Source: Halogeometricum sp. S1BR25-6
GTDB lineage: Archaea > Halobacteriota > Halobacteria > Halobacteriales > Haloferacaceae
Assembly (NCBI RefSeq): GCF_031624495.1
Contig: NZ_JAMQOP010000003.1
Location: 248,001 to 312,000 of the forward strand
Direction of reading: 5' to 3'
Length of the DNA: 64,000 nucleotides
Both the position numbers and the translations under genes were made by a program. The notes under the pieces are model-generated. The model did not search any database and was not told the DNA's origin. It saw only the letters and a program-made list of their open reading frames with translations. Positions 18,103 to 54,620 of this stretch are shown here, piece by piece (positions within the stretch are counted from its first letter, which is position 1; the number at the start of each line of letters is the position of its first letter).

Positions 18103-18281
18103 ACCCTCACATCCCGAACGATGATTGATAAACATTAGGGTTCCATACCGGGGCTCAGCCCCTCACACACGCATCAACGTACTACTGATCAGAAGCAGAG
18201 TAGAATCGAGTCGCACCACGGAACGGCCGTCCCAGACGCGCTCCCGGAAGAATTAACACGATGAAATGGGTGGTTTGGGGT

Positions 18282-23705: not shown

Positions 23706-24533
23706 CTACTTCGCTTCGAGCCACGGCGAATCGTCGCGCTCCACGTAGCGCTCCTGACGGTCGATGTCGTCGATGCGCTCGATGTCCTCCTCGTCAAGGG
23801 CGAGGTCGACCGCGTGCAGGTTGTCACGGAGGTGCGCTTCGCTGCTGGCTTTCGGAATTACGCGGACGTTGTCCTTCGAGAGCAGCCAAGCGATCGAGAC
23901 CTGTGCTTCGCTCACCTCGTGTTTCTCCGCAATCGATTCGAGCACGTCGTTCTCGAACACGTTGCCGCGTGCCAGAGGTGAGTACGCGATCAGCCAGATA
24001 TCGTGTTCCTGCGCGTACTCGAGGATGTCGTCCTGATGGAGGAAGGGGTGCATCTCCATCTGAAGCGCCAGCGGCGTCTCGTCGAGCACCTCTAAGGCTT
24101 CGTCGAGCAGATTTATCGAGTAGTTGCTGAGTCCGACGTGGTCGATAACCCCGTCCTGTTTGAGTTGCTCGAAGGCAGAAAGCGTCTCTTCCGCGTCGTA
24201 GTGGAGAACCGGCCAGTGGACGTAGAGTAAGTCGAGACGCTCGACATCCATTCGTTCACAGCTCTTTTTCGCCCCCTCGATCACGCCGTCGTAGTCCAAC
24301 CCGAACTTCTCCGCGTGGACTTTCGAAGCGACGACGACATCGTCGCGTTCGACGTCCGCCCGGTGGAGACCGCGACCCACGCTTTCTTCGTTTCCGTAGT
24401 AGTGGGCGGTGTCGATGTGCCGATACCCCAGTTCGAGTGCCGTCTGGACGCTGTTCGCGCACTCGTCCGGGTCGGTGTTCTGCCACGTACCGAGGCCTAT
24501 CGCCGGAAAATTGCTTTCTGGTGGCTGCATCAT
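23706..24533 (-). CDS. Aldo/keto reductase
   Basis: A 275-residue AKR TIM barrel that reduces aldehydes or ketoses with NADPH. The catalytic tetrad is visible: Asp in RHIDTAHYYGNE, Tyr in the same block, Lys in VVASKVH and His in YVHWPV. The cofactor-binding VIPKASSEAHLRDN is near the C-terminus. TATA-like AAAATCTAATAC sits about 24-33 bp before the start. It is convergent with the oxidoreductase at 22344 and divergent from the IclR gene. May process a sugar released by the locus. Confidence 0.9.
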   Translation of the reverse strand: MMQPPESNFPAIGLGTWQNTDPDECANSVQTALELGYRHIDTAHYYGNEESVGRGLHRADVERDDVVVASKVHAEKFGLDYDGVIEGAKKSCERMDVERLDLLYVHWPVLHYDAEETLSAFEQLKQDGVIDHVGLSNYSINLLDEALEVLDETPLALQMEMHPFLHQDDILEYAQEHDIWLIAYSPLARGNVFENDVLESIAEKHEVSEAQVSIAWLLSKDNVRVIPKASSEAHLRDNLHAVDLALDEEDIERIDDIDRQERYVERDDSPWLEAK

Positions 24534-36217: not shown

Positions 36218-38176
36218 ATGAACCCACTCGATGGTAACCCGCTAGCAACCCGTAGAGACCTGCAGAACGCGGCCCGGTCGTTGCTCGTACCGCTGGAACA
36301 ACACGCTAGCCCGGGCGGCGCCAGAGTCAGACCGGGCGTCACGGGGGCGCATTTTCCGACCCTCGCGGCGGAACTAGAGGGGTTCGCGAGGCCGTTGTGG
36401 GGCGCGGCCCCGCTCGCGGCGGGCGGCGGCGACTTCGATTACTGGGAACGCTACCGGACGGGACTGGCCAACGGGACCAACCCCGAACACGAGGAGTACT
36501 GGGGCGCGGTGACCGACTACTCGCAGACGGCCGTGGAGATGGCACCCATCGGCGTCGCTCTCGCATTGGCGACTGACGACCTCTGGCGACCGCTCACGGA
36601 CGACACGCAGGCGGCCGTCGCCGACTGGCTTCGGAGAATCAACGACGTGGACGTGCCGGACTCAAACTGGCTGTTCTTCCGCGTGCTCGCGAACGAGGGG
36701 CTCCGAGCGGTCGGTTCGGAGCCGGACGAGGAGCGGGTGCGTCAGGACCTCGACCGTCTCGAATCGTTCGCCCTGTCGGACGGCTGGTACGGCGACGGTC
36801 CCGACGGACACTGCGACTACTACACCGCGTGGGAACTGCACACCGACGGGCTGTTGTACGCGACGTTGGCCGACGACCGCGACCCGGAACGGGCCGACCG
36901 AATCCGCGACCGCGCCCGAGCGTTCGCTGGCGAGTTCGACCGGTGGTTCGCCGCCGACGGCGGCGCGCTCCCGTACGGTCGAAGCCTCACCTACCGGTTC
37001 GCACAGGGCGCGTTCTGGGGTGCACTGGCCTTCGCGGGCGTGGAGGCGTTTCCATGGGGAGAGCTGAAAGCACGGTGGCTCCGGCACCTCCGTTGGTGGG
37101 CCGGGCGGCCCGTCTTCACCGCCGACGGCGTGCTCTCGCTCGGCTACGCGTACCCGACGCTGAAGATGACCGAGTCGTACAACTCCCCCTCTTCGCCCTA
37201 CTGGGCGATGAAGTTCTTCCTCCCGCTGGCGCTGTCCGCCGACCACCCGTTCTGGCAGGCCGAGGAACGGACGCCCGACCGGCCGAGCGACGTCGTCAGC
37301 CAAGAACCACCGGGGATGGTACTCCAACCCGACGACGGGCAGGTGTGCGCGCTCTGCGCCGGGACGGCCTCGGGCGACGCGGAGAAGTACAACAAGTTCG
37401 CCTACTCCACCCGCTTCGGGATGAACGTAGCCGACGGAAACGGCCGGACCGGTGCCGCTCCCGACGGGACGCTCCTCCTGAGCGACGACGACGAGCGATT
37501 CCGGCGGCGGCAGCAGATTGTCGACCGAGACGTCCGCGATAACGTCGTCTACTCCCGCTGGGAACCGTGGGACGACGTCACCGTCGATAGCTGGCTCGCT
37601 CCGGCGCCGCCGTGGCACGTCCGTCTCCACCGTATCAAGACGGACCGCACGCTGACGAGCGTCGAGGGGGGATTTCCGGTTCCGGCGGACGGGCACGCGA
37701 GCGCCGCAACCGATGGAACTGCGGCCGCCGCGGCCGCCGCTGGCGACAGCCTCCTTCGGACGCTCGACGGGACCCGAGAGGGCGCAGTCGAATCCCTGCC
37801 ACCGAACACGAACCTGCTTTGTCCTCGAACAGTGGTGCCGACCCTATGCGGCGAGCACGAACCCGGGACGACGTGGCTCGCGACGGGCGTCCTCGGCGGC
37901 CCGATGGGAATCGTTGCCGAGTATCCTGACTCCGTTACTAATCCGTCCGCTCCCGCGGACTTCACCGCGAATCAGCGCAGGGAGAGTGGCGACGACACGG
38001 CCGCACTCACGCGCCAGTGGGCCGCGCCTCCCGCGTCGGCGTCGAACGACCGCGACCTCGCGGTGGCTACCGACGTCGCCGGTCCCGAATACGATCGGAT
38101 TGAGGACGGACACGTCATCACCGCAGGAGATGGGCGGACGCTGCTACGGGTCGACCCGTCCCCTCCTCGCCGGTGA
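36218..38176 (+). CDS. DUF2264-domain protein
   Basis: 652 residues of the DUF2264 family, whose N-terminal half (about 5-340) is an alpha/alpha-toroid like that of polysaccharide lyases. Diagnostic blocks: NPLATRRDLQNAARSLLVPL, NGTNPEHEEYWG, DSNWLFFRVLANEGLR, YGDGPDGHCDYYTAWELHTDGLLYA, RSLTYRFAQGAFWGAL and YNSPSSPYWAMKFFLPLAL. There is no secretion signal, so it is probably cytosolic. Activity in this family is not generally established; association with GH88 supports a role on uronate-containing oligosaccharides. TATA-like CTTTTT at 36183-36190. Confidence 0.85.
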   Translation: MNPLDGNPLATRRDLQNAARSLLVPLEQHASPGGARVRPGVTGAHFPTLAAELEGFARPLWGAAPLAAGGGDFDYWERYRTGLANGTNPEHEEYWGAVTDYSQTAVEMAPIGVALALATDDLWRPLTDDTQAAVADWLRRINDVDVPDSNWLFFRVLANEGLRAVGSEPDEERVRQDLDRLESFALSDGWYGDGPDGHCDYYTAWELHTDGLLYATLADDRDPERADRIRDRARAFAGEFDRWFAADGGALPYGRSLTYRFAQGAFWGALAFAGVEAFPWGELKARWLRHLRWWAGRPVFTADGVLSLGYAYPTLKMTESYNSPSSPYWAMKFFLPLALSADHPFWQAEERTPDRPSDVVSQEPPGMVLQPDDGQVCALCAGTASGDAEKYNKFAYSTRFGMNVADGNGRTGAAPDGTLLLSDDDERFRRRQQIVDRDVRDNVVYSRWEPWDDVTVDSWLAPAPPWHVRLHRIKTDRTLTSVEGGFPVPADGHASAATDGTAAAAAAAGDSLLRTLDGTREGAVESLPPNTNLLCPRTVVPTLCGEHEPGTTWLATGVLGGPMGIVAEYPDSVTNPSAPADFTANQRRESGDDTAALTRQWAAPPASASNDRDLAVATDVAGPEYDRIEDGHVITAGDGRTLLRVDPSPPRR

Positions 38177-41986: not shown

Positions 41987-42724
41987 CTACTTCCGAGGCG
42001 GCCGTTCGGTGTCGTGTTCGGCGACCGTTTCGAGCAGGTCCACCAACGCCTCGCTCGCGGCGTCGAGGAGGTCCTCGCCCAGGTCGGCGCTCGCCTCGCG
42101 CGGGTCGCCGACGACGCCGTTCTCGGTGAACTCGGCCGAGTCGAACGCGAGGTTGACTTTCCCCTTCCAGTTCCCCCAGCGCCGGGTCCCCTCCGCCGCC
42201 GCGTCGTCGAGGCGGTCCTCGCGCACCGCGTCGGGGTTCGCGTGTTGGAGCAGCGACGTCTCCAGCGCACCGCCGTGCCCCATGGGCGGAGCGTCCTCGC
42301 CGACCGCCTCGAACCACGTGAACGGGACCGCGTACGCGTCGTCGTGGCGGGTGATCGTTCCGGCGACCTCCCGAAGGGCAGCCACGTTTCCGCCGTGGCC
42401 GTTCACGAGCACCACGCGGTCGAAGCCGTGGAACGCCAGACTCTCGACGATGTCGCGGACGTACGACCGGAACGTCGACTCGGACGTCCAGAGCGTCCCC
42501 GAGAACTGTCGGTGTTCCTCGGCGACGCCGACGGAGACGGCCGGGGACACGGCGACCGGGTCGTCGAGTCGGTCGGCGGCGGTTTCGGCGACCGTCTCGG
42601 CGTTGAGCGTGTCGGTGCCGAGCGCGGCGTGCGGTCCGTGCTGCTCCGTGCTTCCGATCGGTACCATCGCCAGATTCGTCTCCGCGTCGCGAACTTCGGT
42701 CCACGTCGCACTTTGGATGTCCAT
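41987..42724 (-). CDS. Creatininase-family amidohydrolase
   Basis: A 245-residue member of the creatininase superfamily, metal-dependent amide or lactam hydrolases. The metal and catalytic residues are visible: Glu27, His29 and Asp38 in IGSTEQHGPHAALGTD, His110 in VNGHGGN and Glu155 in MGHGGALETS. Length is standard. The start is supported by a TATA-like CTTATGTA about 24-32 bp upstream. In a sugar-acid cluster it could open a lactone or lactam; real creatinine use is not suggested by neighbours, although a sarcosine oxidase-like gene lies next on the same strand. Confidence 0.87.
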   Translation of the reverse strand: MDIQSATWTEVRDAETNLAMVPIGSTEQHGPHAALGTDTLNAETVAETAADRLDDPVAVSPAVSVGVAEEHRQFSGTLWTSESTFRSYVRDIVESLAFHGFDRVVLVNGHGGNVAALREVAGTITRHDDAYAVPFTWFEAVGEDAPPMGHGGALETSLLQHANPDAVREDRLDDAAAEGTRRWGNWKGKVNLAFDSAEFTENGVVGDPREASADLGEDLLDAASEALVDLLETVAEHDTERPPRK

Positions 42725-42931
42725 ACGTTGCTGCTCTGTTCGAGCTACATAAGACTCCGCCCCGCCCGCGGGTCGGCGAACGCCGCAGTCGAGAACGCGT
42801 CCGCCGGTCGCCCCCCTCGGCGACCACGCACAGCGAACGCGTTGTGCACGCAGTCGCCGCGGCCGGCCGCATCGGGCACCCGTTCGACCGCCGTCGAGAC
42901 GGCACCGCCGCGCGCGAACCGTCGGTAGTCG

Positions 42932-44107
42932 TTACTCGTAGACGTGGACGCTCCCCGTCGCGTTCTCTTCGATGTAGTCCCAGTCGTACTCGACGCCGAG
43001 GCCGGGGCCGTCCGGAACGGGAACGGTTCCGTCCGAGGAGACGGTCTCCAGTTCGTCCGAGTAGTCTCCGAGGTACACCGGCGGGACGGTGTTCCCGCAG
43101 TCCGGATGGACCAAGGAGACCTCGTAGTAGTTCGTGTTCCGCGTCGCGGCCATGCAGTGTCTGGACGCCGGTCCGGGGGCGTGGAACTCGACGTCGAGGC
43201 CGAACCCCTCGGCGACCTTCGCGATTTTCATCGCGCCCGTGATGCCGCCGTCGTACTCGGGGTCCGCGCGGACGAGGTCGGTCGCGCCGTTGGCGATGAA
43301 GTCGCTGTGGAGTTCGAGTCCGCGGACGTGTTCGGTCTGCAACACCGGCGTGTCGAGTTCCTCGCAGAGACGCTCGTGGGCGTGCATCGAGATGCCGCCG
43401 TCTCGATAGGGGTCTTCGTACCAGAGATAGTCCTCCTTGTCGAGGGCTCGTCCGACTTTCAGCGCGTCGAGGTACGTCTCGTACTCGCAGGCCGGGTCGA
43501 GCATGAGGTCCATCTCGTCGCCGACCCGTTCGCCGACGGCGTGCACCATCGCTATCTCTCGGTCGATGTCGCGGTCGGCGTCCGAGCCGCCCCAACTGTG
43601 TATCTTGTACGCCGGGTAGCCGATGTCCCGACACGTCTCGGCGAAGTCGGCGAACGCCTCCGGGGAATCGAGGCCGCCGTTCGTGTCGCCGAAGTACGTC
43701 GACGCGTACGCCGGCAACTCGGTCCGATAGGTGCCGAGCAGTTCGTGGATGGGGGCGTCGTAGTACTTCCCGGCGAGGTCCCAGAGGGCGATGTCGATGG
43801 GACCGATGCCCATACGGTCGTACTTCCGGAGGGCGCGTTTGATCTCGCTCCAGTGTCGTTCGCGGTCGAGCGGATTCTTGCCGACGAGGTAGTCGCCGAA
43901 TAGGTTGATCTGCGCCGCACCCGGCGAACTCCCGCCGACGTACGTGCCCGTCACTCCTTCGTTCGTGTGCACTTTTATCGCGAACAGCTTTCGGTCGAGG
44001 ACGCTGCCGGGGTCGTACACCGGGTTGAACCCGTGGCCGTCCGTGCCCACGTCTTCGAGCGGATAGCTGAACTCTGTCGACTCTATCCGCGTTATTTCGA
44101 GCGACAT
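42932..44107 (-). CDS. Enolase-superfamily sugar-acid dehydratase
   Basis: 391 residues of the mandelate racemase/muconate lactonising group; most members in such clusters dehydrate aldonic or aldaric acids. The barrel residues are visible: Lys-x-His in YKIHSWGG (about 170), the Mg ligands Asp in MLDPACEY, Glu in YEDPY and Glu in LQTEHVRG, then RADPEYDGGITGAMKIAK and a late His in EFHAPGPASRH. Own TATA (CATATATG, 44131-44139) about 25-32 bp upstream. The product would be a 2-keto-3-deoxy acid or analogous intermediate. Confidence 0.88.
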   Translation of the reverse strand: MSLEITRIESTEFSYPLEDVGTDGHGFNPVYDPGSVLDRKLFAIKVHTNEGVTGTYVGGSSPGAAQINLFGDYLVGKNPLDRERHWSEIKRALRKYDRMGIGPIDIALWDLAGKYYDAPIHELLGTYRTELPAYASTYFGDTNGGLDSPEAFADFAETCRDIGYPAYKIHSWGGSDADRDIDREIAMVHAVGERVGDEMDLMLDPACEYETYLDALKVGRALDKEDYLWYEDPYRDGGISMHAHERLCEELDTPVLQTEHVRGLELHSDFIANGATDLVRADPEYDGGITGAMKIAKVAEGFGLDVEFHAPGPASRHCMAATRNTNYYEVSLVHPDCGNTVPPVYLGDYSDELETVSSDGTVPVPDGPGLGVEYDWDYIEENATGSVHVYE

Positions 44108-44238
44108 GAGTCGGCTATCGAAACGGCGGCATATATGTCTTTTCGAACGTCGAGTTCCTCTCGCGTCCGAGGGCGGACGTCAGCTTCGTCGCCCGGAACG
44201 CGTCTCCGACGGCTCCCGCTCGGAACTGCGAGCGTCCG

Positions 44239-45267
44239 CTATCGGACGACGTGCGCCGGCGTCTCGTCGTCGAGGTACGCGTCGAGTTGCGAGGCGATGA
44301 TGCGGGGGCCGCCGAGGACCGCGTCGCGGGTCGACCCGGCGACGTGCGGGGTCAGGACGACGCCGTCGAGGTCGAACAGCGGGTGGCCCTCCGGAATCGG
44401 TTCCTCCTCGAAGACGTCCAGCGCCGCGCCGGCGATTTCCCCCTCGGAGACGGCGTCCACGAGGGCGTCGGTGTCGACGAGGCCGCCGCGCGCGGTGTTG
44501 ACGAGGTAGCCGTCCTCGTTCATCTGCTCGAACTCCTCGCGTCCGATCATCCCCTCGGTGTCCTCCGAAAGGCGGACGTGGAGGGTGACGGCGTCGGACT
44601 CGCCGAGCAGGGTTTCGAGGTCCGCCGGTTCGGGACCGACCTCGCGTATCTCCTCGTCGTCGACGAACGGGTCGTAGACGAGGAGTTCGGGGTCGAAGCC
44701 GGCGAGGCGACGGGCCACCCCGCGGCCGATGTGGCCGAACCCGACGATGCCGACGGTCGTCGTCCGCACGTCCGGCGGCAGCAGGTCGGGGTCGAACACC
44801 TGGTTCCACTCGCCGTTCGAGAGTTCGGCGTGATTGAACGGAATCTCCCGGAGTCGCGAGAGCAGCATCGAAACCGCGTAGTCCGCGACCGCATCGCGGT
44901 TCCGCCCCGGCGCGTGGAGGACGGTCACGTCGTTGTCCGCGGCCGCCTCGAGGTCGACGTTCTCCGTGCCGCCGCGGGCCGCGGCGACCACCGAAAGGTC
45001 GGCGCCCTCGATGAGTTCGCGGGACACCGGGGCCTTGTGGACGACGAGTACGTCGGCGCCGTCGAGGTTCGCGGCGATGGCGTCCGTATCGTAGCTTCCC
45101 GGGCCGCGCGACTCCATCTCCATCGTGACGTTGCGGAACTCGGCCGGCGAGGAGTCGCCCATCCAGTCCATGCGCTCGAAGCGCACCCCGCGACTCTCCA
45201 ACCCCCCGAGGGCTTCGTGCATGTACTCGCTCGGCTGCTGCGGGTCCCCGCAGAGTAACACCTTCAT
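44239..45267 (-). CDS. D-isomer 2-hydroxyacid dehydrogenase
   Basis: 342 residues, NAD-binding core VGIVGFGHIGRGVARRL (about 172-188) and the catalytic Arg/Glu/His set in VVAAARGGTENVD, ARGGLVDTDALVDA and VLTPHVAGST. Related to phosphoglycerate and erythronate dehydrogenases. It starts 4 bp after the kinase stop, so it is the third gene of the aldolase-kinase-dehydrogenase operon. Probably oxidises the incoming 2-hydroxy sugar acid before phosphorylation, as in known threonate/erythronate pathways; the substrate is inferred only. Confidence 0.88.
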   Translation of the reverse strand: MKVLLCGDPQQPSEYMHEALGGLESRGVRFERMDWMGDSSPAEFRNVTMEMESRGPGSYDTDAIAANLDGADVLVVHKAPVSRELIEGADLSVVAAARGGTENVDLEAAADNDVTVLHAPGRNRDAVADYAVSMLLSRLREIPFNHAELSNGEWNQVFDPDLLPPDVRTTTVGIVGFGHIGRGVARRLAGFDPELLVYDPFVDDEEIREVGPEPADLETLLGESDAVTLHVRLSEDTEGMIGREEFEQMNEDGYLVNTARGGLVDTDALVDAVSEGEIAGAALDVFEEEPIPEGHPLFDLDGVVLTPHVAGSTRDAVLGGPRIIASQLDAYLDDETPAHVVR

Positions 45268-45271
45268 CGAA

Positions 45272-46774
45272 TCAGCGTTCCTGAGCCAGCGACTTGAGCG
45301 TTTCCCACGGCGATTCCATCGCGTCGGCCACCTCCGCGAACGCGTCGGCGACCGTCCGGTAGCGTGCCTCGGTCTCGGGGTCCGGTTGGTAACGAACGGC
45401 GGTGCCGACCGCGCGGTCCACCGCCGCCTCGACGGTCGGATAGACGCCGGCGGCCACGCCGCCGCAGAGTGCTGCGCCGAGCGCCCCCGTCTCGCGCTCG
45501 GTCGGCACCGTCACCGGCAGCGTCGAGACGTCGGCGAACATCTGCGCCCACGCCTCGCTCTGCGCCCCGCCGCCGGTCAGCCGAATCGCGTCCACGTCCG
45601 CCGCGATGGACTCCAGCGCGCTCGTCTGGCTGATGGCGATGCCCTCGTAGACCGCACGGAGCATGTGCGCGTTCGTGTGTTCGAGGCGGAGGCCGTAGAA
45701 CCCGCCCGAACTGTTCGGGTCGTCCGTCGACCCCTTGAGGAACGGGTGGAACACCAGTCCGTCGGCGCCGGGGGAAACGCTCGACACCGCCTCCTCGTAG
45801 ACGACGTAGGGCGAGACGCCGCGCTCCTCGGCCTCGCGCCGCCAGTCGGCCCCGCAGTTCTCAACGAACCACTCGACGCAGGCCGCGCCGGACCGGAGAC
45901 CCTCGTACCGGAGCCACCGGTTCAGGTACCGCCGCGGCAGCCCCGACTCCCCGTCTTCGGGCGCGTCGAGGACGGCGACGCTCTGCCCCCAGGTGCCGAG
46001 GATGAGCAGTCCGTCGCCGGGTTCGACGACGCCCGCGCCGAGGGTGCAGGCGGCGACGTCGTGCAGTCCCGCGGCGACCGGGGTCCCCTCCGGGAGTCCG
46101 GTTCGCGCCGCGGCCGCGGCGGTCACCGTTCCGCAGGGTTCGGTGCTCGGGACGACGGGCGGAAGCGCGTCGAACGCATCTTCGATATCGAGTGCCGAGA
46201 ACACCGCCTCGTCGTACTCGGGCGTCGGCCCGTAGAACACGCTCGCCTCCGAGGGGTCCGTGGAGCGCTCGCCGGTGAGTCGGTGGGTGAGCACGTCCTT
46301 CGAGAACAACAGCGTCTCCAATCGGTCGTACGTATCCGGGTCGTGCTCGCGGAGCCACACGAGGAGGCTCAGCGGGTCGGCGCCGAACGGCTCCCAGCCG
46401 AGGCGGTCGACGACCGTCTCCAGAACGTCCGAGCGGGACGTCGAGAGCGTGTCGAGCGCGCGACTGTCGGTGGACTTGATGCCGCAGACCGGCGCGCCCT
46501 CGGCGTCAAGCCCGTAGAGTCCGTGGCCGTGGCCGGCGACGCCGACCCCGGCGACCGCGTCGGTCGGAACGCGCTCCGTGACCGCGGCGACCGCCTCGCA
46601 GACGACCTCCCACAGTCGGTCGTGGTCCTGTTCGTCGCGTCCGGACGCCGTCTCGACGGTCGGCGTCGACCGCGACGCGCTGGCGAGTTCGTCGCCGGCG
46701 CCGTCGAACGCCGTCACCGTGACGTTCGTGAGTCCGGCGTCGACGCCGACGAGGACGTCGTCGGGGTCGGTCAT
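45272..46774 (-). CDS. FGGY-family carbohydrate kinase
   Basis: 500 residues with the two actin-like domains of FGGY kinases (xylulokinase/L-xylulokinase branch). VGVDAGLTNVTVTAFD is the N-terminal phosphate-binding loop; the catalytic base Asp lies in AAGLHDVAACTLGAG (about 235); IRLTGGGAQSEAWAQMFADV and GALGAALCGG form the C-terminal ATP site. Its start overlaps the aldolase stop by 4 bases. It would phosphorylate a ketose or keto-acid to make the aldolase substrate. Confidence 0.9.
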   Translation of the reverse strand: MTDPDDVLVGVDAGLTNVTVTAFDGAGDELASASRSTPTVETASGRDEQDHDRLWEVVCEAVAAVTERVPTDAVAGVGVAGHGHGLYGLDAEGAPVCGIKSTDSRALDTLSTSRSDVLETVVDRLGWEPFGADPLSLLVWLREHDPDTYDRLETLLFSKDVLTHRLTGERSTDPSEASVFYGPTPEYDEAVFSALDIEDAFDALPPVVPSTEPCGTVTAAAAARTGLPEGTPVAAGLHDVAACTLGAGVVEPGDGLLILGTWGQSVAVLDAPEDGESGLPRRYLNRWLRYEGLRSGAACVEWFVENCGADWRREAEERGVSPYVVYEEAVSSVSPGADGLVFHPFLKGSTDDPNSSGGFYGLRLEHTNAHMLRAVYEGIAISQTSALESIAADVDAIRLTGGGAQSEAWAQMFADVSTLPVTVPTERETGALGAALCGGVAAGVYPTVEAAVDRAVGTAVRYQPDPETEARYRTVADAFAEVADAMESPWETLKSLAQER

Positions 46775-47775
46775 CGGTCCGAGCGCATCGTCTCGCCGGC
46801 GCTCCCGGTCAGTTCGCAGAGGTCGCTCATCACCGAGGCGATGCGGTCGCGGACCGTCCCCGACACGACGTGCGGGTGGAAGAACGTCTTGTCCGGTTCC
46901 CAGTCGCTGTCGGCGAAGAACCCGGCCCGGTCGTCCTCGACGTCGGCGGGCGGACGGACCGCGTCCGCGTGGTCGCGATAGAAGTCCGCGGTCGTGCGGG
47001 CGAATTCGTACTGGTACCGGGTGTTCTTGTTGAACTTGCAGACGCCGGCGTCGAGCAGTTCCGCGATTCGCTCGTCCGGAAGTCCCGAGGCGCCGTGGAC
47101 GACCAGCGGCGTCTCATGACCGGCCGCCCGGAGCGCGTCGTCGATGTCGGCCGCGAGGTCGGGGCGGACGTCGAGGTCGCGGCCGGACGCGACCCCGTGC
47201 TGCGTGCCGATGGAGACGGCGAGCAGGTCGCAGCCGGTCCGGTCGACGAACTCGACGGCGTCCGCCGGGTCGGTGTAGAACGCCTCGTCGTCGGGGGTCT
47301 CGGTGGTCCCCTCGACGCCCGCGATGCGCCCGAGTTCCGCCTCGACGAGGACGTCGTCGCCGACGCGGTCGACGGCCTCGGCCGTCAGTTCGACGTTCCG
47401 CTCGAACGGCTCCGCCGACGCGTCGACCATCACCGAGTCGGGGACGCCGGAGTCGACCGCGGCCTCCAAGAAACCGAAGCCCTCGGGGAGGTGGACGTGG
47501 TCGACATTGCAGAACGCCTCGACGCCGTGGCGTTGGGCGAGCGAATCGAGAGCGGCGCCGAAGACGTCGAGACCGACCGCGGGGTCGCCGTCGCCGAAGA
47601 AGGCCGCCTCCTCCCTGCCGAGTTGCACGACCAGGTCCGAGTCGACGCTCGCGCTCCCCCGCAGGAGTCCGACGAGGACGTCGAAGTGGGTCACGTTGCT
47701 CGCGAAGAAGCCGTAGCTCCCCTTCCTGGCCCGTTCGTAGCACTCGTCCAGCGCGGCGGTTGTGTTGCGCGGCAT
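46771..47775 (-). CDS. Class II (KbaY/FbaA-like) aldolase
   Basis: 334 residues from the ATG at 47775 (MPRNTTAALDECYERARKG). A minus-strand AACTATAA promoter (47801-47808) is 26-33 bp upstream. Zinc-dependent class II aldolase, splitting a phosphorylated sugar into DHAP and an aldehyde. The motifs are divergent but visible: FCNVDHVHLPEGF in the first zinc region, VEAELGRIAGVEG with Glu, LAVSIGTQHG, VHGASGLPDERI with zinc His and phosphate-binding CKFNKNT. First gene of the operon with the FGGY kinase and dehydrogenase. Confidence 0.87.
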   Translation of the reverse strand: MPRNTTAALDECYERARKGSYGFFASNVTHFDVLVGLLRGSASVDSDLVVQLGREEAAFFGDGDPAVGLDVFGAALDSLAQRHGVEAFCNVDHVHLPEGFGFLEAAVDSGVPDSVMVDASAEPFERNVELTAEAVDRVGDDVLVEAELGRIAGVEGTTETPDDEAFYTDPADAVEFVDRTGCDLLAVSIGTQHGVASGRDLDVRPDLAADIDDALRAAGHETPLVVHGASGLPDERIAELLDAGVCKFNKNTRYQYEFARTTADFYRDHADAVRPPADVEDDRAGFFADSDWEPDKTFFHPHVVSGTVRDRIASVMSDLCELTGSAGETMRSDR

Positions 47776-47800
47776 ACCGGGCGTACCACGCCGCCCCGGA

Positions 47801-47808
47801 TTATAGTT
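47801..47808 (-). promoter_or_regulatory. TATA element of aldolase operon
   Basis: AACTATAA on the minus strand, 26-33 bp before the aldolase ATG. The plus-strand stress-protein gene has its own GTTTATACC at about 47849-47857. Confidence 0.6.
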
Positions 47809-48398: not shown

Positions 48399-49760
48399 AT
48401 GGTATTGGCGAATCCGCTCATCCCGCTGGCGATAGGGGTACTGCTGGTCGTGTTCCTGCTCGTGTATCTGAACCTCCCACCGTTCGTGGGGTTGATCATC
48501 GCCGCGTTGGGCGTCGCGGTCATCTCGTCCGGCGTTCCGATAAACGAGGTTCCGGCCCAGGTGGCGCAGGCGTTCGGCGAGACGCTCATCGGCGTCGGCA
48601 TCCCCATCCTGATGGCCGCCATCATCGGCAAAACGCTCATGGAGAGCGGGGCGGCGGCTCGCATCGTCCGCGCCGCGTTGTCGGTCACCGGGCAAGAGCG
48701 CTCCGAGTACGCCATTCTCACCAGCAGCTATCTGCTGTCGGTCCCGGTGTTCTTCGACAACGTGTTCTACCTGCTCGCCCCGCTCGGTCGGGCGATGAAG
48801 AAACGGACCGGCGTGAAGTTCTCCCTCTACATGACGGCCCTCTGTGCGGGCGCCCTCGCGACGCACACGCTGGTGCCGCCGACCCCCGGTCCGCTCGCCG
48901 TTGCGAACTCCCTGAACGTGAACCTGGGGCTCGCCATCCTCGTCGGCGGAGCGGTCGCGCTCCCGACGTCGCTGCTCGGCGGAATCGTCTACGGAAAGGC
49001 GCTGCACAACCGCGAGGAGTTCCCGCTCCGCGAGTCGATGGGGGTCTCCTCCGAGGAGATCGACGAGGAGATGGCCGACTCGGGGACGGGTCCGGGGCTC
49101 GTCGAGTCGCTGACGCCCATCGTCCTCCCGCTTATCCTCATCGGGTCGAACACCATCGCCGCCGCGCTGTACGCGGAGGGGACGACGATTCGTACCGCCA
49201 CGGCGTTCGTGGGCGACGCGACGCTCGCGCTGACGGCCGCTGCGATGTTCTCGACGTACACCTACTATCGTCTGGAAGTCCGCGACCTCGACGTGCTCAA
49301 CGAGGAGTTGACGGGCGCGATCAAGAGCGGCGGGAACATCATCGCCATCACCGCCGCCGGCGGCGCGTTCGGTGCGATGCTCAACACGACCGGCGTCGGC
49401 GAGTACGTCGCCGGCATCGTCACCGGCCTCGGCTTCTCGCTGCTCGTGGCAGGGTGGCTCATCGCCGCCCTGATGCGCGTCGCGCAGGGCTCGGCTACCG
49501 TCGCGCTGCTGACCGGAGCCGAAATCATGGCGCCGCTCACCGGCGACCTCTCCGTCGGCGCCGTCTACCTGATGTTGGCCATCGGCGCCGGCGGCATGAT
49601 CGCCCCGTGGTTCAACGACAGCGGCTTCTGGATCGTCTCCGAGGTCGGCGGACTGACGCAGACCGAGACGTTCAAAACCTACTCCGCGAGCGCGACGATC
49701 ATGTCGATTGCGGGGCTCCTGCTGATTCTCCTCCTCTCGTCGGTCGTCCCCCTGGCGTAG
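48399..49760 (+). CDS. GntP-family gluconate/sugar-acid permease
   Basis: 453 residues, about twelve membrane segments, of the gluconate:H+ symporter family. Typical elements are NLPPFVGLIIAALGVAVISSG near the N-terminus, VPVFFDNVFYLLAPLGRAM, HTLVPPTPGPLAVA and the C-terminal MIAPWFNDSGFWIVSEVGGLTQTETFKTYSA. TATA-like ATATTATAATG is at 48361-48371. Expected to import an aldonic acid for the minus-strand sugar-acid enzymes or the downstream four-carbon acid route. Confidence 0.92.
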   Translation: MVLANPLIPLAIGVLLVVFLLVYLNLPPFVGLIIAALGVAVISSGVPINEVPAQVAQAFGETLIGVGIPILMAAIIGKTLMESGAAARIVRAALSVTGQERSEYAILTSSYLLSVPVFFDNVFYLLAPLGRAMKKRTGVKFSLYMTALCAGALATHTLVPPTPGPLAVANSLNVNLGLAILVGGAVALPTSLLGGIVYGKALHNREEFPLRESMGVSSEEIDEEMADSGTGPGLVESLTPIVLPLILIGSNTIAAALYAEGTTIRTATAFVGDATLALTAAAMFSTYTYYRLEVRDLDVLNEELTGAIKSGGNIIAITAAGGAFGAMLNTTGVGEYVAGIVTGLGFSLLVAGWLIAALMRVAQGSATVALLTGAEIMAPLTGDLSVGAVYLMLAIGAGGMIAPWFNDSGFWIVSEVGGLTQTETFKTYSASATIMSIAGLLLILLLSSVVPLA

Positions 49761-49980: not shown

Positions 49981-50014
49981 AGGCTTATATTCCCGAACCG
50001 ATAGTGCGAACGTG

Positions 50015-50812
50015 ATGGAGAAAGCGAGCAACCCGGTCAAAGCGGTGGAGACGACCGTTCGAGTGTTAGAGGCGCTCAAAGAACTGAACGGCGCGACGGT
50101 AACGGAACTCGCCGCGCACCTCGATCTGACGAAGGGTACCGTCCACAACCACGTGAGCACGCTCGAACAGCACCGGTTCGTCGTCAAGGAAGACGGGCGG
50201 TACGAACTGAGTCTCCGGTTTCTCATCTTCGGGGAGTACGTGCGAAACGACGATATCCTCTATCAGATCGGCGAACCCGAGATCAAAGAACTGGTCGAGG
50301 AGACGGGCGAAATCGTCCACCTCTCGACCGAACAGCACGGTCTGAGCATGAAGCTCTGCAAACTCCTCGGCGAGGACGCCGTCGGCGAGCGATTTCACGC
50401 CGTCAAGCTACAGCGCCCCGATTACCTCCACTACACGGCCACGGGCAAGGCCATTCTCGCCTTCCTCCCTCAATCCAGAGTAGAGCGCATCGTCGACGAG
50501 TACGGTCTCGCCGAACTGACCGGCAACACCATCACCGACCGCGACGCTCTGTTCGACGAACTCGAAGCGACGCGCGGGCGCGGATACTCGCTCAACGACC
50601 AAGAGGAAGTCGAAGGCATCCGCGCCGTCGGCGCGCCGGTGCGGGACCAAACCGGGCGCGTCCTCGGGGCTGTGAGCGTCTCCGGACCGGTCAGCCGTCT
50701 GCGAGAAGAACGGTTCCGGGAGGTGCTCCCGGAGAAGGTGACGAACACGACCAGCGTGATAGAGGCGAACATCAACCTGACCGAGAGCATCGGCCGGTCG
50801 GGCGTCGAGTGA
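50015..50812 (+). CDS. IclR-family transcriptional regulator
   Basis: 265 residues from the ATG at 50015; a GTG one codon earlier is possible. Winged HTH at about 12-70 (LNGATVTELAAHLDLTKGTVHNHVSTLEQHRF), effector domain at about 80-255 (YLHYTATGKAILAFLPQSRVERIVDEYGL, VGAPVRDQTGRVLGAVSVSGPVSRL). TATA 25-31 bp before the start implies a leaderless mRNA. Palindromes GTTTAG-N5-CTAAAC sit in front of this gene, 9 bp after its stop, and before the kinase gene, implying control of itself and of the four-carbon acid genes. Confidence 0.9.
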   Translation: MEKASNPVKAVETTVRVLEALKELNGATVTELAAHLDLTKGTVHNHVSTLEQHRFVVKEDGRYELSLRFLIFGEYVRNDDILYQIGEPEIKELVEETGEIVHLSTEQHGLSMKLCKLLGEDAVGERFHAVKLQRPDYLHYTATGKAILAFLPQSRVERIVDEYGLAELTGNTITDRDALFDELEATRGRGYSLNDQEEVEGIRAVGAPVRDQTGRVLGAVSVSGPVSRLREERFREVLPEKVTNTTSVIEANINLTESIGRSGVE

Positions 50813-51106: not shown

Positions 51107-52363
51107 ATGTACTCCGTCATAGTCGTCGCCGACGACCTCACCGGCGCGATGGACACGTCGCAGGGGTTCGCGGCCCGCGGTTACGAGGCGGCCGTCGTCG
51201 CCGACCCCGAAGCCGACAAAGGGGCCGTAGAGGAGGAGGGGGCCGTACTCGGAATCAACACCGACACCCGCTACGACGACGAGGGCGACGCCGCGAGGAG
51301 CGTCTCCGAAGCGGTCGAAGCGACGCCGGCGCGGACCGTCTACAAAAAGATCGACTCGACGCTGCGCGGGAACTTCGCCGCGGAGGTGGACGCCGCGCTT
51401 GACGCGGCGGGGTCGGAACTGGCACTCGTCGCGCCCGCCTTCCCCTCCATCGGCCGAACGACGGAGGACGGCGTCCACTACGTCGACGGGACACCGGTCT
51501 CCGAGACCGAGTACGGGGACGACGAAAAGGGGCCCGCCTCGTCGTCGATTCCCGAGTTGTTCGCGTCGGTCGACCGGCCGGTCGAGACGGTATCGCACGC
51601 GGCGGTCGTGTCGGGAGACGACGGAATCGCGGCCGCCGTCGAGCGATACGACCGGCCCCCGGTCGTCGTCTGCGACGCCGTCGAGGACGACCACCTGGCC
51701 GACATCGCGGCGGCGGCCGACGGTCTCGACGCGCTGTACGTCGGGAGCGGCGGTTTGGCCGCGCACGTGCCGGTGCGGGGTTCGGAGCCGGATTTCGAGT
51801 CCTCCCGGCGGTTCTCGGAGGGAGGAGCGCTCGGCGTGGTCGGGAGCGTCAGCGCGACGACGCTCGCACAACTCGAACGGGTGCCCGAGGAGGCGGTCGT
51901 CCCCGTCGACGGTACGGACCTCGTCGTCGGGGAGGAACCGGACGCCGCCGTCGAGCGAGCCGTCCGGCGGTTGCGCGAGGGCCGTCCGGCGGTCTTGACC
52001 GCGGCGACCGACGAGAGTACCATCGAGCGTACGCACGCCGCCGGTCGGGAGGCCGGTCTCGCGTCCGCGGCGGTCCGCGAGCGAGTGGCGAGCGGACTGG
52101 CGTCGGCCGCGGCGGACGTCCTCGACGAGGAACCCCCCTCGGGACTGCTCCTGACCGGCGGCGACATCGCGGTGGCGGTGATTCGGGAACTCGGCGCGAC
52201 GACCATCCGATTGACCGGCGAGGAGGTCGAAGCGGGCATTCCCCTCGGGACGTTCGCCGACGGGAGGGCCGCCGAGGTGCCGTTGGTCACGAAGGCCGGC
52301 GGATTCGGCTCTGAAGAGACAATCGTTAATTGTCTGGCCGTGTTCTCCGAGGACGATGCGTAG
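51107..52363 (+). CDS. Four-carbon acid sugar kinase (OtnK/DtnK type, DUF1537)
   Basis: 418 residues of the DUF1537 kinase family that phosphorylates threonate/erythronate-type acids. The N-terminal domain starts VIVVADDLTGAMDTSQGFAARG (substrate Asp motif DDLTGA), with VYKKIDSTLRGNFAAEVDAAL at about 82-102 and APAFPSIGRTT. The C-terminal nucleotide-binding domain has LGVVGSVSATTLAQL and GLLLTGGDIAVAVIRELGATTIRL with the Gly-rich ATP motif. It overlaps the PdxA2-like gene by 8 bp, the arrangement of characterised D-threonate kinase/PdxA2 pairs. Confidence 0.9.
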   Translation: MYSVIVVADDLTGAMDTSQGFAARGYEAAVVADPEADKGAVEEEGAVLGINTDTRYDDEGDAARSVSEAVEATPARTVYKKIDSTLRGNFAAEVDAALDAAGSELALVAPAFPSIGRTTEDGVHYVDGTPVSETEYGDDEKGPASSSIPELFASVDRPVETVSHAAVVSGDDGIAAAVERYDRPPVVVCDAVEDDHLADIAAAADGLDALYVGSGGLAAHVPVRGSEPDFESSRRFSEGGALGVVGSVSATTLAQLERVPEEAVVPVDGTDLVVGEEPDAAVERAVRRLREGRPAVLTAATDESTIERTHAAGREAGLASAAVRERVASGLASAAADVLDEEPPSGLLLTGGDIAVAVIRELGATTIRLTGEEVEAGIPLGTFADGRAAEVPLVTKAGGFGSEETIVNCLAVFSEDDA

Positions 52364-53357
52364 TCACGAGCCCTTAATCGGTATCACGATGGGTGACCCC
52401 GGCGGAATCGGTCCCGAGGTAATCGTCAAAGCGTACCCGAAGCTACGCGAGGTCGCTCGACCCCTCGTCATCGGCGATGCGGACGTTGTCGAGGCCGCAA
52501 TCGACGTGTGCGGCGCCGACCTCGCGGTCGAAGCCGTCGAATCCGTCGCGGACGCGAGCTTCGACCGCGACCGAATACCGGTGTTGGACTTGGATTTGGT
52601 CGACGAACTCGTTCGCGGCGAGGTCCGCGAGGCGTACGGGGCCGCGAGCCTCCGATACGTCGAGCGCGCCATCGAACTCGCCGTGGCGGGGGAGATAGAC
52701 GCCATCACGACCGCGCCAATCAACAAGCAGTCGACGGAACTCGCCGGCAGCGAGTACGCCGGCCACACGGGAATGCTCGCCGACTACACCGACACGGAGA
52801 ACTACTCGATGATGCTCGTCGAGGACGACCTCCGGGTGACGCACGTGAGTACGCACGTTCCGCTCCAGGAGGCCTGCGACCTGGTGACGACGGAGCGCGT
52901 CTTGGAGACGATTCGACTCACGGACGAGGCGCTTCGGGACCTCGGCGTCGACTCGCCGTCGGTCGGCGTCGCGGGGTTGAACCCGCACGCCAGCGACGGC
53001 GGACTGCTCGGCGACGAGGACGACGCGGAGATCAGGCCGGCGGTCGAACGCGCCCGCGAGGAAGGTATCGACGCGACGGGCCCCGAGTCACCGGACACCG
53101 TCTACGTCCGCGCCGCCCGCAGCGAGTTCGACTGCGTCGTTTCGATGTATCACGACCAGGGACATATCCCCATCAAGATGCTCGGATTCGCCGGCGGCGA
53201 CGCCGTCTCCGGGGTCAACGTCACCATCGGACTCCCCATCGTGAGGACGAGCGTCGACCACGGCACCGCCTTCGATATCGCCGGGGACGGAATCGCTTCC
53301 GAACGCAGCCTTATCGACGCCGTCGAAGTCGCCGTCGAGATGGTCGCCGACGAGTGA
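52356..53357 (+). CDS. PdxA2-like 4-phosphothreonate dehydrogenase
   Basis: 333 residues, PdxA family (NAD-dependent oxidative decarboxylase). GITMGDPGGIGPEVIVKAY opens the protein; the three metal histidines are in YAGHTGML, GLNPHASDGG and SMYHDQGHIPIKM; ITTAPINKQ is a substrate loop. Next to a DUF1537 kinase this belongs functionally to the PdxA2 branch, which oxidises 4-phospho-D-threonate or erythronate to DHAP and CO2, rather than to pyridoxal synthesis. Archaea generally make PLP by another route, which supports this reading. Confidence 0.9.
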   Translation: MRSHEPLIGITMGDPGGIGPEVIVKAYPKLREVARPLVIGDADVVEAAIDVCGADLAVEAVESVADASFDRDRIPVLDLDLVDELVRGEVREAYGAASLRYVERAIELAVAGEIDAITTAPINKQSTELAGSEYAGHTGMLADYTDTENYSMMLVEDDLRVTHVSTHVPLQEACDLVTTERVLETIRLTDEALRDLGVDSPSVGVAGLNPHASDGGLLGDEDDAEIRPAVERAREEGIDATGPESPDTVYVRAARSEFDCVVSMYHDQGHIPIKMLGFAGGDAVSGVNVTIGLPIVRTSVDHGTAFDIAGDGIASERSLIDAVEVAVEMVADE

Positions 53358-53624
53358 AGGGCGGACGGACGAACGCCGGTTGGGAGGCTCTCCGCCCGTC
53401 CATGATACCAAATCACCCGAGATCACTTTACGAGGTTCCGGGAGCGTCGTCTCTCTGACGTCCGGCGATACGCTTTCGTTCCCTTCCGTAACATACTTTA
53501 ATCAACATTCAGTACGAGCAATCAGAATGCTTGCCAAGACAGCCCACGGTCGGAGAGGCTGCCGTGACTCCGTCGCGACGGCCGCACAGACGCGAATCGG
53601 CGGACTCGACGGCGGTGGACGGCC
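53358..53624. other. Intergenic before KDG permease
   Basis: 267 bp. TATA-like ACTTTAATC near 53495 with CAACATTCAGTACG following suggests a separate promoter with a leader of about 100 nt. No gene seen. Confidence 0.4.
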
Positions 53625-54620
53625 ATGAAGATAAAGCAGACGATAGAGCGGATTCCGGGCGGGATGATGGTCGTCCCTCTGATACTGGGCGCGCTCACGA
53701 ACACGTTCTTCCCGCAGGCGCTGGAGATAGGCGGCTTCACCACGGCGCTCCTGAAAGACGGGGCGCTTCCCCTCATCGCCGCGTTCCTCGTGTGTATGGG
53801 CGCGGGCATCACGGTCGACGAGGCGCCGCAGGCGCTGAAGCAGGGGGCGGCTATCACGGCCTCGAAGTTCGTCGTCGGGATGGGCATCGGTCTCCTCGTG
53901 GCTACCTTCCTCGGAAACAGTCTGCTGGGACTCTCCTCTCTGGCCATCATCGCGGCGATGACCAACACGAACGGCGGTCTGTACGCCGCGCTCGTGGGAG
54001 AGATGGGCGACGAGACGGACGTCGGCGCGATATCCATCATCTCGGTCAACGACGGCCCGTTCCTCACGATGGTCGCGTTGGGGACGGCCGGCATCGCCTC
54101 GATTCCGCTGCTCGACCTGCTTGCGGTCGTCGTTCCCATCCTCATCGGCATGATACTGGGCAACCTCGACGACGACATGCAGGAGTATCTCACCAGCGCG
54201 GGCCCGGTGCTCATCCCCTTCTTCGCCTTCCCGCTCGGGGCGGGCATCGACTTCACCATGCTCGTCACCGCCGGCGCGGCGGGCATCCTGCTGGGCGTCG
54301 TCACGGTCCTCGTCGGCGGCGCGTTCAACATCCTCGCCGACCGCGTTTCGGGCGGGACGGGCGTGGCCGGCGCCTCCGCGTCGAGTACGGCCGGGAACGC
54401 GGTGGCGACGCCCGAAGCCGTCGCCGTCGCCGACCCGGCGCTGCGGCAGGCGGCCGCCGTGGCGACGCCACAGGTCGCTGCCTCGACTATCGTGACGGCG
54501 CTGCTCGCCCCCGTGTTGGCCAGTTTCGTCCACGACCGGGTGTACGACGACGAGGCGGGACCGGCCGACGACGCCGGTCCCGCCCAACCGAGTCAGACGT
54601 CGGCCGCCGGAAACGAGTGA
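53625..54620 (+). CDS. kdgT: 2-keto-3-deoxygluconate permease (KdgT family)
   Basis: 331 residues, about ten membrane segments. [31 protein letters not shown] is the family's N-terminal signature, followed by [59 protein letters not shown], and [13 protein letters not shown]. In known bacteria KdgT takes up KDG; relatives near DUF1537 kinases probably carry four-carbon or other sugar acids. It follows the kinase/PdxA2 pair on the same strand with its own possible promoter. The C-terminal tail is acidic. Confidence 0.9.

Follow-up and report, generated by a model that had tools for sequence, protein, structure and literature searches.

The window, a 64,000-nucleotide stretch of a contig from Halogeometricum sp. 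S1BR25-6, contains five neighboring genes on the minus strand, as placed by ORF positions and Pfam assignment, and a set of plus-strand genes beyond them:

41987-42724, minus strand: creatininase-family hydrolase (Pfam)
42746-42752, minus strand: TATA-like box of the creatininase-like gene (sequence)
42932-44107, minus strand: enolase-superfamily protein, probably a sugar-acid dehydratase (Pfam, profiles)
44131-44136, minus strand: TATA-like box of the dehydratase gene (sequence)
44239-45267, minus strand: D-2-hydroxyacid dehydrogenase of a distinct subfamily with motifs RGGxxN, PGRN, LHxR, and PHxAG (Pfam, motifs)
45272-46774, minus strand: FGGY-family carbohydrate kinase (Pfam, profile scores)
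46771-46774, minus strand: ATGA overlap of the aldolase stop and kinase start (4 bp shared)
46771-47775, minus strand: class II aldolase (PF01116), a fructose-bisphosphate aldolase (FBA) paralogue with an altered aldehyde side (Pfam, NF041368, alignments)
47800-47805, minus strand: TATA-like box (TATAAT) located 25-30 bp upstream of the aldolase start, the likely promoter of the aldolase-kinase-dehydrogenase trio (sequence)
48399-49760, plus strand: GntP-family sugar-acid symporter, divergent neighbor and candidate importer (TIGR00791, 303.6 bits; cut-off 292.75)
50012-50812, plus strand: IclR-type regulator (Pfam)
51107-52363, plus strand: four-carbon acid sugar kinase, D-threonate-kinase-like, in an associated module outside the trio (PF07005; NF047819, 262.6 bits; cut-off 450)
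52356-53357, plus strand: PdxA2-like phosphate dehydrogenase, associated module (TIGR00557, 362.6 bits; cut-off 290.35)
53625-54620, plus strand: KdgT-like transporter, associated module (TIGR00793, 274.6 bits; cut-off 453.8)

Coordinates and an A/T scan confirm that all five genes are real, as are the 4-bp overlap, the gap of 4 bp between the kinase stop and the dehydrogenase start (45268-45271), and the TATA-like boxes. Between positions -33 and -20, the best 7-mer has 6/7 A/T upstream of the aldolase, dehydratase, and creatininase-like genes, a count attained at 3.2% of window positions on both strands, while it has 1/7 before the kinase and 4/7 before the dehydrogenase. This pattern fits transcription of the trio from one promoter, with the dehydratase and creatininase-like genes each having their own. 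The aldolase-kinase spacing in the trio is not a matter of chance, with the nearest kinase start at -4 relative to the aldolase in 18/20 other trio loci and at -8 in the remaining two.

Kinase orthologues (at least 44% identity) occur in 15 of 243 haloarchaeal genomes, each flanked by the aldolase and the dehydrogenase, and a query with the dehydrogenase matches the identical 15 genomes and none besides at E ≤ 1e-90, every match adjoining the kinase. The order aldolase-kinase-dehydrogenase is identical across all 21 loci compared (the window and 20 others), and the distance matrices of the three proteins are concordant (Spearman 0.95-0.96). As controls, we used 15 genomes from the kinase search that have only other, more distant FGGY kinases, a non-random choice, and within the 4.3-4.5 kb surrounding the best kinase, none of them (0/15; L024-L038) has a trio-type aldolase. 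The earlier suggestion that the three genes act together is thus upheld by co-presence in 15/15 genomes with two queries and by the matching distance matrices, and we regard the aldolase, FGGY kinase, and 2-hydroxyacid dehydrogenase as almost certainly one unit on these sequence comparisons. Among the loci compared, no neighboring gene that would fix the substrate is common to all. In line with the first-pass remark that the combination matches no nameable pathway, a literature search, with most subscription journals outside its coverage, found no published account of this gene set.

By alignment, the trio aldolase is a paralogue of the haloarchaeal class II FBA with a pocket that is predicted to be altered. 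It passes the haloarchaeal class II FBA equivalog NF041368 (540.6 bits; cut-off 500) and is 48% identical to the canonical FBA of the same genome, which scores 561 bits and lies within a fructose PTS operon (L058:9193-10185). The two share their fold family and their catalytic and DHAP-side motifs: the window aldolase retains NVDH, HGASG, and NKNT, which we take to be the catalytic Asp-His and DHAP-binding motifs of class II FBA, and the trio aldolases keep the NxDH motif, the HGxSG loop, and the N-x-N/D-T loop in alignment. NxDH, whose Asp is presumably the aldehyde-side catalytic residue, is present in 21/21. Unlike haloarchaeal FBA, the trio aldolase is paired with kinase and dehydrogenase genes, has an insertion following DH (18/21 copies; DHVHLP in the window), and differs at the position aligned to the class IIA FBA DPR arginine, which we take to bind the C6 (second) phosphate (E. 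coli Arg331). This position reads HPH in 18/21 copies, including that of the window, NPQ in 2/21, and DPR in 1/21, leaving 20/21 without the second-phosphate arginine; the exception (L056) is the most divergent trio aldolase. A change from NKDT to NKNT was dropped as a sign of altered specificity because a class IIB FBA (4to8) has Asn there too.

The kinase has FGGY domains (PF00370/PF02782) and falls under the cut-offs of the FGGY equivalogs XylB/xylulokinase (241 bits; cut-off 380), gluconokinase (181; 649), AI-2 kinase (181; 528), and L-fuculokinase (106; 471). The dehydrogenase (PF02826 and PF00389) carries TARG, EEP, and PHVAG motifs, which presumably hold the Arg-Glu-His catalytic residues of D-2-hydroxyacid dehydrogenases, and it is likewise under the cut-offs for phosphoglycerate dehydrogenase (225 bits; cut-off 454) and glyoxylate reductase (199; 455).

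Judged by family assignment, the kinase family and dehydrogenase subfamily recur in bacteria, usually with a different aldolase family. All 11 annotated bacterial records bearing the dehydrogenase signature (10 chosen by dehydrogenase similarity and the E. coli one by Klebsiella operon DNA, several being close kin) have an FGGY kinase adjoining or one gene off, and the third partner is FucA-type in eight and DhnA-type in three. In a Pseudomonadota sample not picked by neighbors, the subfamily occurs in 4/398 genomes, all four with an FGGY kinase, which adjoins the dehydrogenase in three loci and is separated from it by FucA in one; the aldolase is FucA in two, another class II aldolase in one, and none was detected within 11.5 kb in the last. 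Two unannotated bacterial records (L066, L067) have dehydrogenases that lack the signature and no FGGY match by tblastn, the trio is absent from the stretch examined in Halomonas (L042; FGGY 32%), and the matches of the dehydrogenase in phage records are all below 60% identity. Three alphaproteobacterial FGGY kinases compared are only 27-29% identical to the window kinase, and the FGGY kinase in that group may thus be an independent recruit. In a scan of four of these eight FucA-type partners, the best L-fuculose-phosphate aldolase model scores 183-267 bits, versus 92-109 bits for the 3-oxo-tetronate-4-phosphate decarboxylase model, which favors aldol cleavage over a decarboxylase role for these partners. 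Five bacterial loci (L065, L082, L090, L091, L093) contain a GlpD-like gene, whose product could generate a ketone from a phosphorylated alcohol. An operon of the E. coli SE11/Klebsiella type (class I aldolase, antiterminator, FGGY kinase, SDR, 2-hydroxyacid dehydrogenase, PTS IIC), found in 3/5426 E. coli genomes, has the kinase family and dehydrogenase subfamily of the trio but a different aldolase family; the annotation in its records names no pathway.

We tentatively propose, at a little short of an even chance, that the trio would be a self-contained catabolic operon that phosphorylates, splits, and reduces. The FGGY kinase would act on a keto sugar acid, phosphorylating the CH2OH beside its ketone. 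The aldolase, which derives from an FBA, would cleave the phosphorylated keto acid into dihydroxyacetone phosphate (DHAP) and a small phosphate-free aldehyde acid, and the 2-hydroxyacid dehydrogenase would reduce this small acid. DHAP is quite probably the cleavage product, and we lean slightly toward the dehydrogenase acting on a product of that cleavage. That the small product is glyoxylate is more doubtful, though it would be the simplest choice as both an aldehyde, as the aldolase needs, and a 2-oxo acid, as the dehydrogenase needs. Our guess at the substrate is a pent-4-ulosonate such as 4-ketoarabonate, which would give DHAP and glyoxylate and then glycolate, and our next choice is a hex-5-ulosonate, which would give tartronate semialdehyde. 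The first-pass order of oxidation, phosphorylation, and splitting is disfavored, since the aldolase, whose DHAP side is conserved, would demand a ketone beside the phosphorylated carbon, and since a cleavage product would be the better match for a 2-hydroxyacid dehydrogenase.

Several other readings of the trio can be weighed against this proposal. In ordinary ketose catabolism, the kinase would act on a neutral ketose, the aldolase would serve as a spare glycolytic FBA isozyme, and the dehydrogenase would handle side products. The NF041368 score is in line with such a role, and a GlpR-type repressor adjoins the trio in 6/21 loci, the same protein cluster also having a member in the window genome's fructose PTS operon. 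The arginine kept in L056 speaks against our proposal. Furthermore, the trio aldolase is the sole PF01116 protein in 12/15 trio genomes, and DhnA-type class I homologues are found in all 30 trio and control genomes, yet none exceeds the class I FBA model cut-off, so that an FBA role may hold. We nonetheless consider this reading unlikely given the loss of the second-phosphate arginine in nearly all copies, the canonical FBA already present in the window's genome, the 12/15 control genomes that have no PF01116 protein at all, and the presence of the dehydrogenase in every trio genome.

The known tetronate pathways (DtnK/PdxA2; OtnK/OtnC) likewise end in DHAP, as proposed for the trio, and their genes adjoin some trios, but they rely on a four-carbon acid kinase and decarboxylation rather than an FGGY kinase and the proposed aldol cleavage. 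In a four-carbon acid route with a DtnK-type kinase and PdxA2, the dehydrogenase would oxidize a tetronate, the kinase would phosphorylate it, and the aldolase-fold enzyme would decarboxylate 3-oxo-tetronate 4-phosphate to DHAP and CO2. Class II aldolase folds can decarboxylate four-carbon acids (OtnC), and in Halogeometricum pallidum (L039), DtnK and PdxA2 adjoin the trio, as does the GntP-family symporter. In the window, the four-carbon acid kinase is encoded apart from the trio, at a distance of 4.3 kb, and the PdxA2-like protein scores 301.9 bits against the D-threonate 4-phosphate dehydrogenase model (cut-off 583). Within 10 kb of the trio, 2/15 genomes have a four-carbon acid kinase, against 0.08 expected, and 4/15 have a nickel-pincer isomerase of group 22, against 0.21 expected; both counts are above Poisson expectations for random placement, whose significance is overstated if sugar-acid genes cluster on plasmids. 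As a discriminator, however, the four-carbon acid kinase is weak, being present genome-wide in 13/15 trio genomes versus 9/15 controls, and the trio's own kinase is outside that family. The universal retention of NxDH, which decarboxylation would not need, and the model scores of the FucA-type partners also argue against this route, which we judge improbable.

A hexuronate route via D-fructuronate or D-tagaturonate appears improbable as well. Here, the kinase would form a 1-phosphate, which the aldolase would split into DHAP and tartronate semialdehyde, the latter being converted to glycerate by the dehydrogenase or a GarR-like reductase. A GarR-like reductase adjoins the trio in 3/21 loci (L049, L050, L063), with scores just under the cut-off of 340.75 (336 bits in L049, 302 in L063), and close relatives occur in 11/15 trio genomes versus 6/15 controls, whereas the window's genome and three other trio genomes lack one. 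The surroundings of the trio in L054 include a gene resembling mannonate dehydratase (225 bits; cut-off 191) and others resembling galactarate dehydratase (72 and 195 bits; cut-off 731). The window's genome encodes the hexuronate isomerase UxaC on another contig, but UxaC is limited to 3/15 trio genomes, this one included, and 1/15 controls, and we rejected it as a constant feeder; the glycerate kinase family, present in 30/30 genomes, is uninformative. Moreover, since tartronate semialdehyde does not belong to the 2-oxo acids, an isomerase would have to convert it before the dehydrogenase could act.

The dehydratase and creatininase-like genes do not seem to be conserved partners of the trio. 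The dehydratase is under the cut-off of every NCBIfam dehydratase model matched (best 110 bits; cut-off 311) in a comparison covering galactonate, gluconate, arabinonate, rhamnonate, and talarate/galactarate dehydratases. Its best PDB match is the Agrobacterium "isomerase/lactonizing enzyme" (1rvk/4hcd/4mmw), which we take to be galactarate dehydratase III; the two have K-x-H-x-W in common. On the three plasmids examined, the gene after the dehydratase encodes a Gfo/Idh/MocA oxidoreductase. The creatininase-like protein meets the Pfam Creatininase family but not the creatininase (104.5 bits; cut-off 235), MftE (138; 172), or IolN (58.7; 245) equivalogs, and two relatives lie in unrelated gene contexts, with no sign of the lactonase role once suggested for it. 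The five-gene pathway of the first-pass annotation, in which the dehydratase and a creatininase-like lactonase would feed the trio, is therefore very improbable despite same-strand adjacency in the window, since a dehydratase orthologue is found near only 1/20 other trios (L054, G175; 75% identity, 3.5 kb away), with remote enolase-superfamily relatives (28-43% identity) in L041 and L052, the creatininase-like gene is near 0/20, the TATA-like boxes are separate, and a 3-deoxy dehydratase product would lack the hydroxyl needed by the trio aldolase.

Returning to the phosphorylate-split-reduce proposal, the trio looks like an uncharacterized variant of kinase-aldolase sugar catabolism. In inositol catabolism, IolC/IolJ similarly pair a kinase with an FBA-family aldolase to produce DHAP and an acid semialdehyde; IolC, however, is a PfkB kinase, and the trio has an FGGY kinase plus a 2-hydroxyacid dehydrogenase. 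The non-carboxylating pentose bisphosphate pathway of halophilic archaea follows the same split-then-reduce logic, in that a ketose 1-phosphate is cleaved to DHAP and a C2 aldehyde, with reduction of the aldehyde as the next step (PMC9700705). As described in the available portion of that report, it uses a FucA-type aldolase, a phosphatase route from nucleosides, and a glycolaldehyde reductase, with neither an FGGY kinase nor a 2-hydroxyacid dehydrogenase among its enzymes (PMC9700705).

Taken with the bacterial loci, the trio may conceivably represent a pathway common to archaea and bacteria, although we hold this view with some doubt: the FGGY kinase and dehydrogenase subfamily would be fixed, and three aldolase families (FBA-like in haloarchaea, FucA-like in alphaproteobacteria, and DhnA-like in enterobacteria and Rubrobacter) would split keto sugar acids, pent-4-ulosonates for instance, to yield DHAP and glyoxylate, the latter going to glycolate. 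If the chemistry is wrong, the trio is still an uncharacterized three-gene operon. If it is right, haloarchaeal proteins labeled "class II fructose-bisphosphate aldolase" would include a sugar-acid enzyme set, a neglected keto-acid route would connect archaea and bacteria, and the repeated exchange of aldolases beside an unchanging kinase family and dehydrogenase would offer a clear example of non-orthologous replacement, with the dehydrogenase signature making the pathway easy to locate and test.

In the window, which belongs to a 4.5 Mb haloarchaeal genome, all five genes that the first-pass annotation had joined into one sugar-acid pathway lie on the minus strand, and the overlap (4 bp, aldolase and kinase) and gap (4 bp, before the dehydrogenase) that it had described are present in the sequence:

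46771-47775, minus strand, class II aldolase
45272-46774, minus strand, FGGY kinase
44239-45267, minus strand, D-2-hydroxyacid dehydrogenase
42932-44107, minus strand, enolase-superfamily dehydratase
41987-42724, minus strand, creatininase-like protein
51107-54620, next to the first three genes (the trio), likely tetronate module (D-threonate-kinase-like, PdxA2-like and KdgT-like)

We observe TATA-like boxes upstream of the aldolase, dehydratase and creatininase-like genes, while the same scan of the window places none upstream of the kinase or dehydrogenase. This distribution points to a single transcription unit for the trio and to separate units for the remaining two genes. The starts of the window's USP and aldolase genes are 59 bp apart; in Halogeometricum pallidum (locus L039, 7416-8702), reading frames that we judged by eye to be transposase-like separate the GntP/USP genes from the trio.

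When the kinase was used as a query against 243 genomes of the order (E ≤ 1e-60), 30 gave a match: 15 with a kinase at 44-100% identity and 15 in which the best kinase falls below 40%. Every genome of the first group (15/15) has the kinase flanked by the aldolase on one side and the dehydrogenase on the other, in constant order. In the second group (L024-L038, 4.3-4.5 kb examined at each), no trio-type aldolase is found beside the best kinase (0/15), and a dehydrogenase at 39-41% identity lies near it in three. A dehydrogenase query (E ≤ 1e-90) matched exactly the same 15 of the 243 genomes as had been defined by the kinase. With both queries returning one set of genomes and the gene order fixed, the proposal that these three enzymes belong together is supported. 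Including Halogeometricum pallidum, Halobium salinum and four plasmid records, we count 21 distinct trio loci, excluding duplicate record copies (L040, L070 and L071) and one further plasmid match (H4, Haladaptatus). In the 20 loci other than the window's, the overlap between the aldolase stop and the nearest kinase start measures 4 bp (18/20) or 8 bp (2/20). The three proteins also have well-correlated pairwise distances (0.95-0.96), as would be expected of co-inherited genes.

The two other genes do not share this pattern, and their proposed membership in the pathway is not sustained: the creatininase-like gene adjoins the trio in none of the 20 other loci, and one of these (L054) has a dehydratase orthologue (75%) beside the trio, with distant enolase-superfamily relatives (28-43%) close by in L041 and L052. 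On each of the three other plasmids examined from haloarchaea, a Gfo/Idh/MocA oxidoreductase comes after the dehydratase, accompanied on two of them by an SDR named glucose 1-dehydrogenase, and a second dehydratase copy (72% protein identity) lies on another contig of the window's genome. The dehydratase scores under the NCBIfam cut-off for every family matched, the best being galactonate dehydratase (110 of 311 bits), and its nearest solved relatives are 1rvk, 4hcd and 4mmw, which we take to be galactarate dehydratase III. Nor does the creatininase-like protein reach the NCBIfam cut-off for creatininase, MftE or IolN; two close relatives are found in unrelated gene contexts. Elsewhere in the window, a Gfo/Idh/MocA protein (22344-23441), 20 kb from the dehydratase, shares its cluster with a trio-neighboring protein of L054; a 3-keto-acid cleavage (KCE) family protein (18261-19136) and a DkgB-like aldo-keto reductase (23706-24533) are both under their equivalog cut-offs; and a DUF2264 protein (36218-38176) contains both Pfam domains with no NCBIfam match at E ≤ 1e-15.

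For the trio itself, we predict a route from its chemistry. DHAP-type aldolases require a ketone next to the phosphorylated carbon, the substrates of the dehydrogenase family are 2-oxo/2-hydroxy acids, and glyoxylate is the common small molecule that is aldehyde and 2-oxo acid at once; the shortest three-enzyme route would therefore pass through glyoxylate. A pent-4-ulosonate would be phosphorylated to its 5-phosphate, which would be cleaved to DHAP and glyoxylate, and glyoxylate would then be reduced to glycolate. By an oxidation equivalent to that performed by EryB for erythritol, a GlpD-like enzyme could form this ketone from a pentonate already phosphorylated. Alternatively, the substrate could be a hex-5-ulosonate, yielding tartronate semialdehyde, in favor of which GarR-like genes adjoin the trio in 3/21 loci.

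The trio aldolase is named a haloarchaeal fructose-bisphosphate aldolase (FBA) by NCBIfam NF041368 (540.6 bits, cut-off 500). It shares 48% identity with the genome's canonical FBA, which is encoded at a separate site within a fructose PTS operon and scores 561 bits on this model. The two have catalytic and DHAP-side motifs in common, but the canonical enzyme carries PNK..DPR, aligning with class IIA entries in the PDB, where the DPR arginine is presumably Arg331 of E. coli FBA, which binds the second phosphate. At the DPR position, the trio aldolases have HPH (18/21), NPQ (2/21) or DPR (1/21), and 18/21 carry a common DHxHxP insertion that follows the catalytic DH. The natural reading of these residues is that the aldehyde product would have no phosphate. 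The trio aldolase is the sole PF01116 protein in 12/15 trio genomes, while PF01116 is absent from 12/15 control genomes, which were chosen for carrying only other, more distant FGGY kinases and are not random; the family is therefore dispensable to these haloarchaea. All 30 trio and control genomes have DhnA-type homologues, but none exceeds the class I FBA cut-off (0/30). On balance, an FBA role for the trio aldolase is unlikely. The NF041368 equivalog takes in both canonical haloarchaeal FBA and the trio paralogue, and trio aldolases are therefore probably over-annotated.

In the window, the trio is neighbored by a GntP symporter and an IclR regulator. Within 10 kb of the trio, we find a four-carbon acid kinase in 2/15 genomes and a nickel-pincer isomerase of group 22 in 4/15, versus 0.08 and 0.21 expected from random placement, respectively; a GlpR-type repressor adjoins it in 6/21 loci, and uronate isomerase occurs in 3/15 trio genomes, including the window's own. 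The trio is thus associated with sugar-acid genes but without a constant feeder. As its surroundings are very diverse, several loci having no evident sugar gene adjoining, the trio probably needs little beyond its own three genes. Separately, 22 cases across the 30 haloarchaeal genomes were compared: group 22 (NF052515, LarA-like) is found no more than 10 kb from a four-carbon acid sugar kinase in 16 and no more than 3 kb away in 13, and is a candidate C2-epimerase of threonate/erythronate. On a Natronococcus sp. CG52 plasmid (L063, 1509-12889), a trio of divergent subtype precedes a gene for an OiaX-like RuBisCO-like protein. Close by are genes for an OiaK-like kinase, a FucA-type aldolase and a GarR-like reductase, and each of these four proteins scores below its own cut-off.

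The dehydrogenase has a signature (R-G/A-G-x-x-N ... G-R-N, LHxR, PHxAG) that also occurs in bacteria. In all 11 annotated bacterial records opened that carry it (Rubrobacter, two Shinella, Paracoccus seriniphilus, Paracoccus denitrificans, Klebsiella, Gemmobacter, Sagittula, Cereibacter, Sinorhizobium and E. coli), an FGGY kinase is adjacent or one gene off; ten were picked by dehydrogenase similarity and the E. coli record via Klebsiella operon DNA, and several are closely related. Eight of the 11 have a FucA-type class II aldolase as third partner and the other three a DhnA-type class I aldolase (with Rubrobacter called by tblastn at 30% and E. coli by annotation). The four FucA partners scanned, out of eight, best match L-fuculose-phosphate aldolase (183-267 bits versus 92-109 for 3-oxo-tetronate-4-phosphate decarboxylase), and five bacterial loci include a GlpD-like flavoprotein within the same gene run. 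In a separate Pseudomonadota sample, the subfamily occurs in 4/398 genomes, each time with FGGY (three adjacent, one with FucA between); FucA is present at two of these loci and another class II aldolase at one, with no aldolase detected at the fourth. In Paracoccus, Sagittula and Cereibacter plasmids (L079-L081), the dehydrogenase-FucA-FGGY set sits inside a larger gene run that also holds three annotated CoA-transferase genes, one gene annotated as acetolactate synthase and one for a molybdopterin oxidoreductase (in L081 a partial protein with a BisC-family match); to our knowledge, this run matches no known pathway.

A kinase with a DHAP aldolase is an already known kind of system. Our literature search, of partial coverage, found no publication on the trio gene set, nor, judging by titles and the openings of abstracts, did any related paper listed describe it, and the variant with a 2-hydroxyacid dehydrogenase and interchangeable aldolases appears uncharacterized. 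Although the three alphaproteobacterial kinases compared are only 27-29% identical to that of the window, which counts against a common step, three aldolase families fill the same slot, and the step common to archaea and bacteria is therefore likely to be aldol cleavage of the kinase product.
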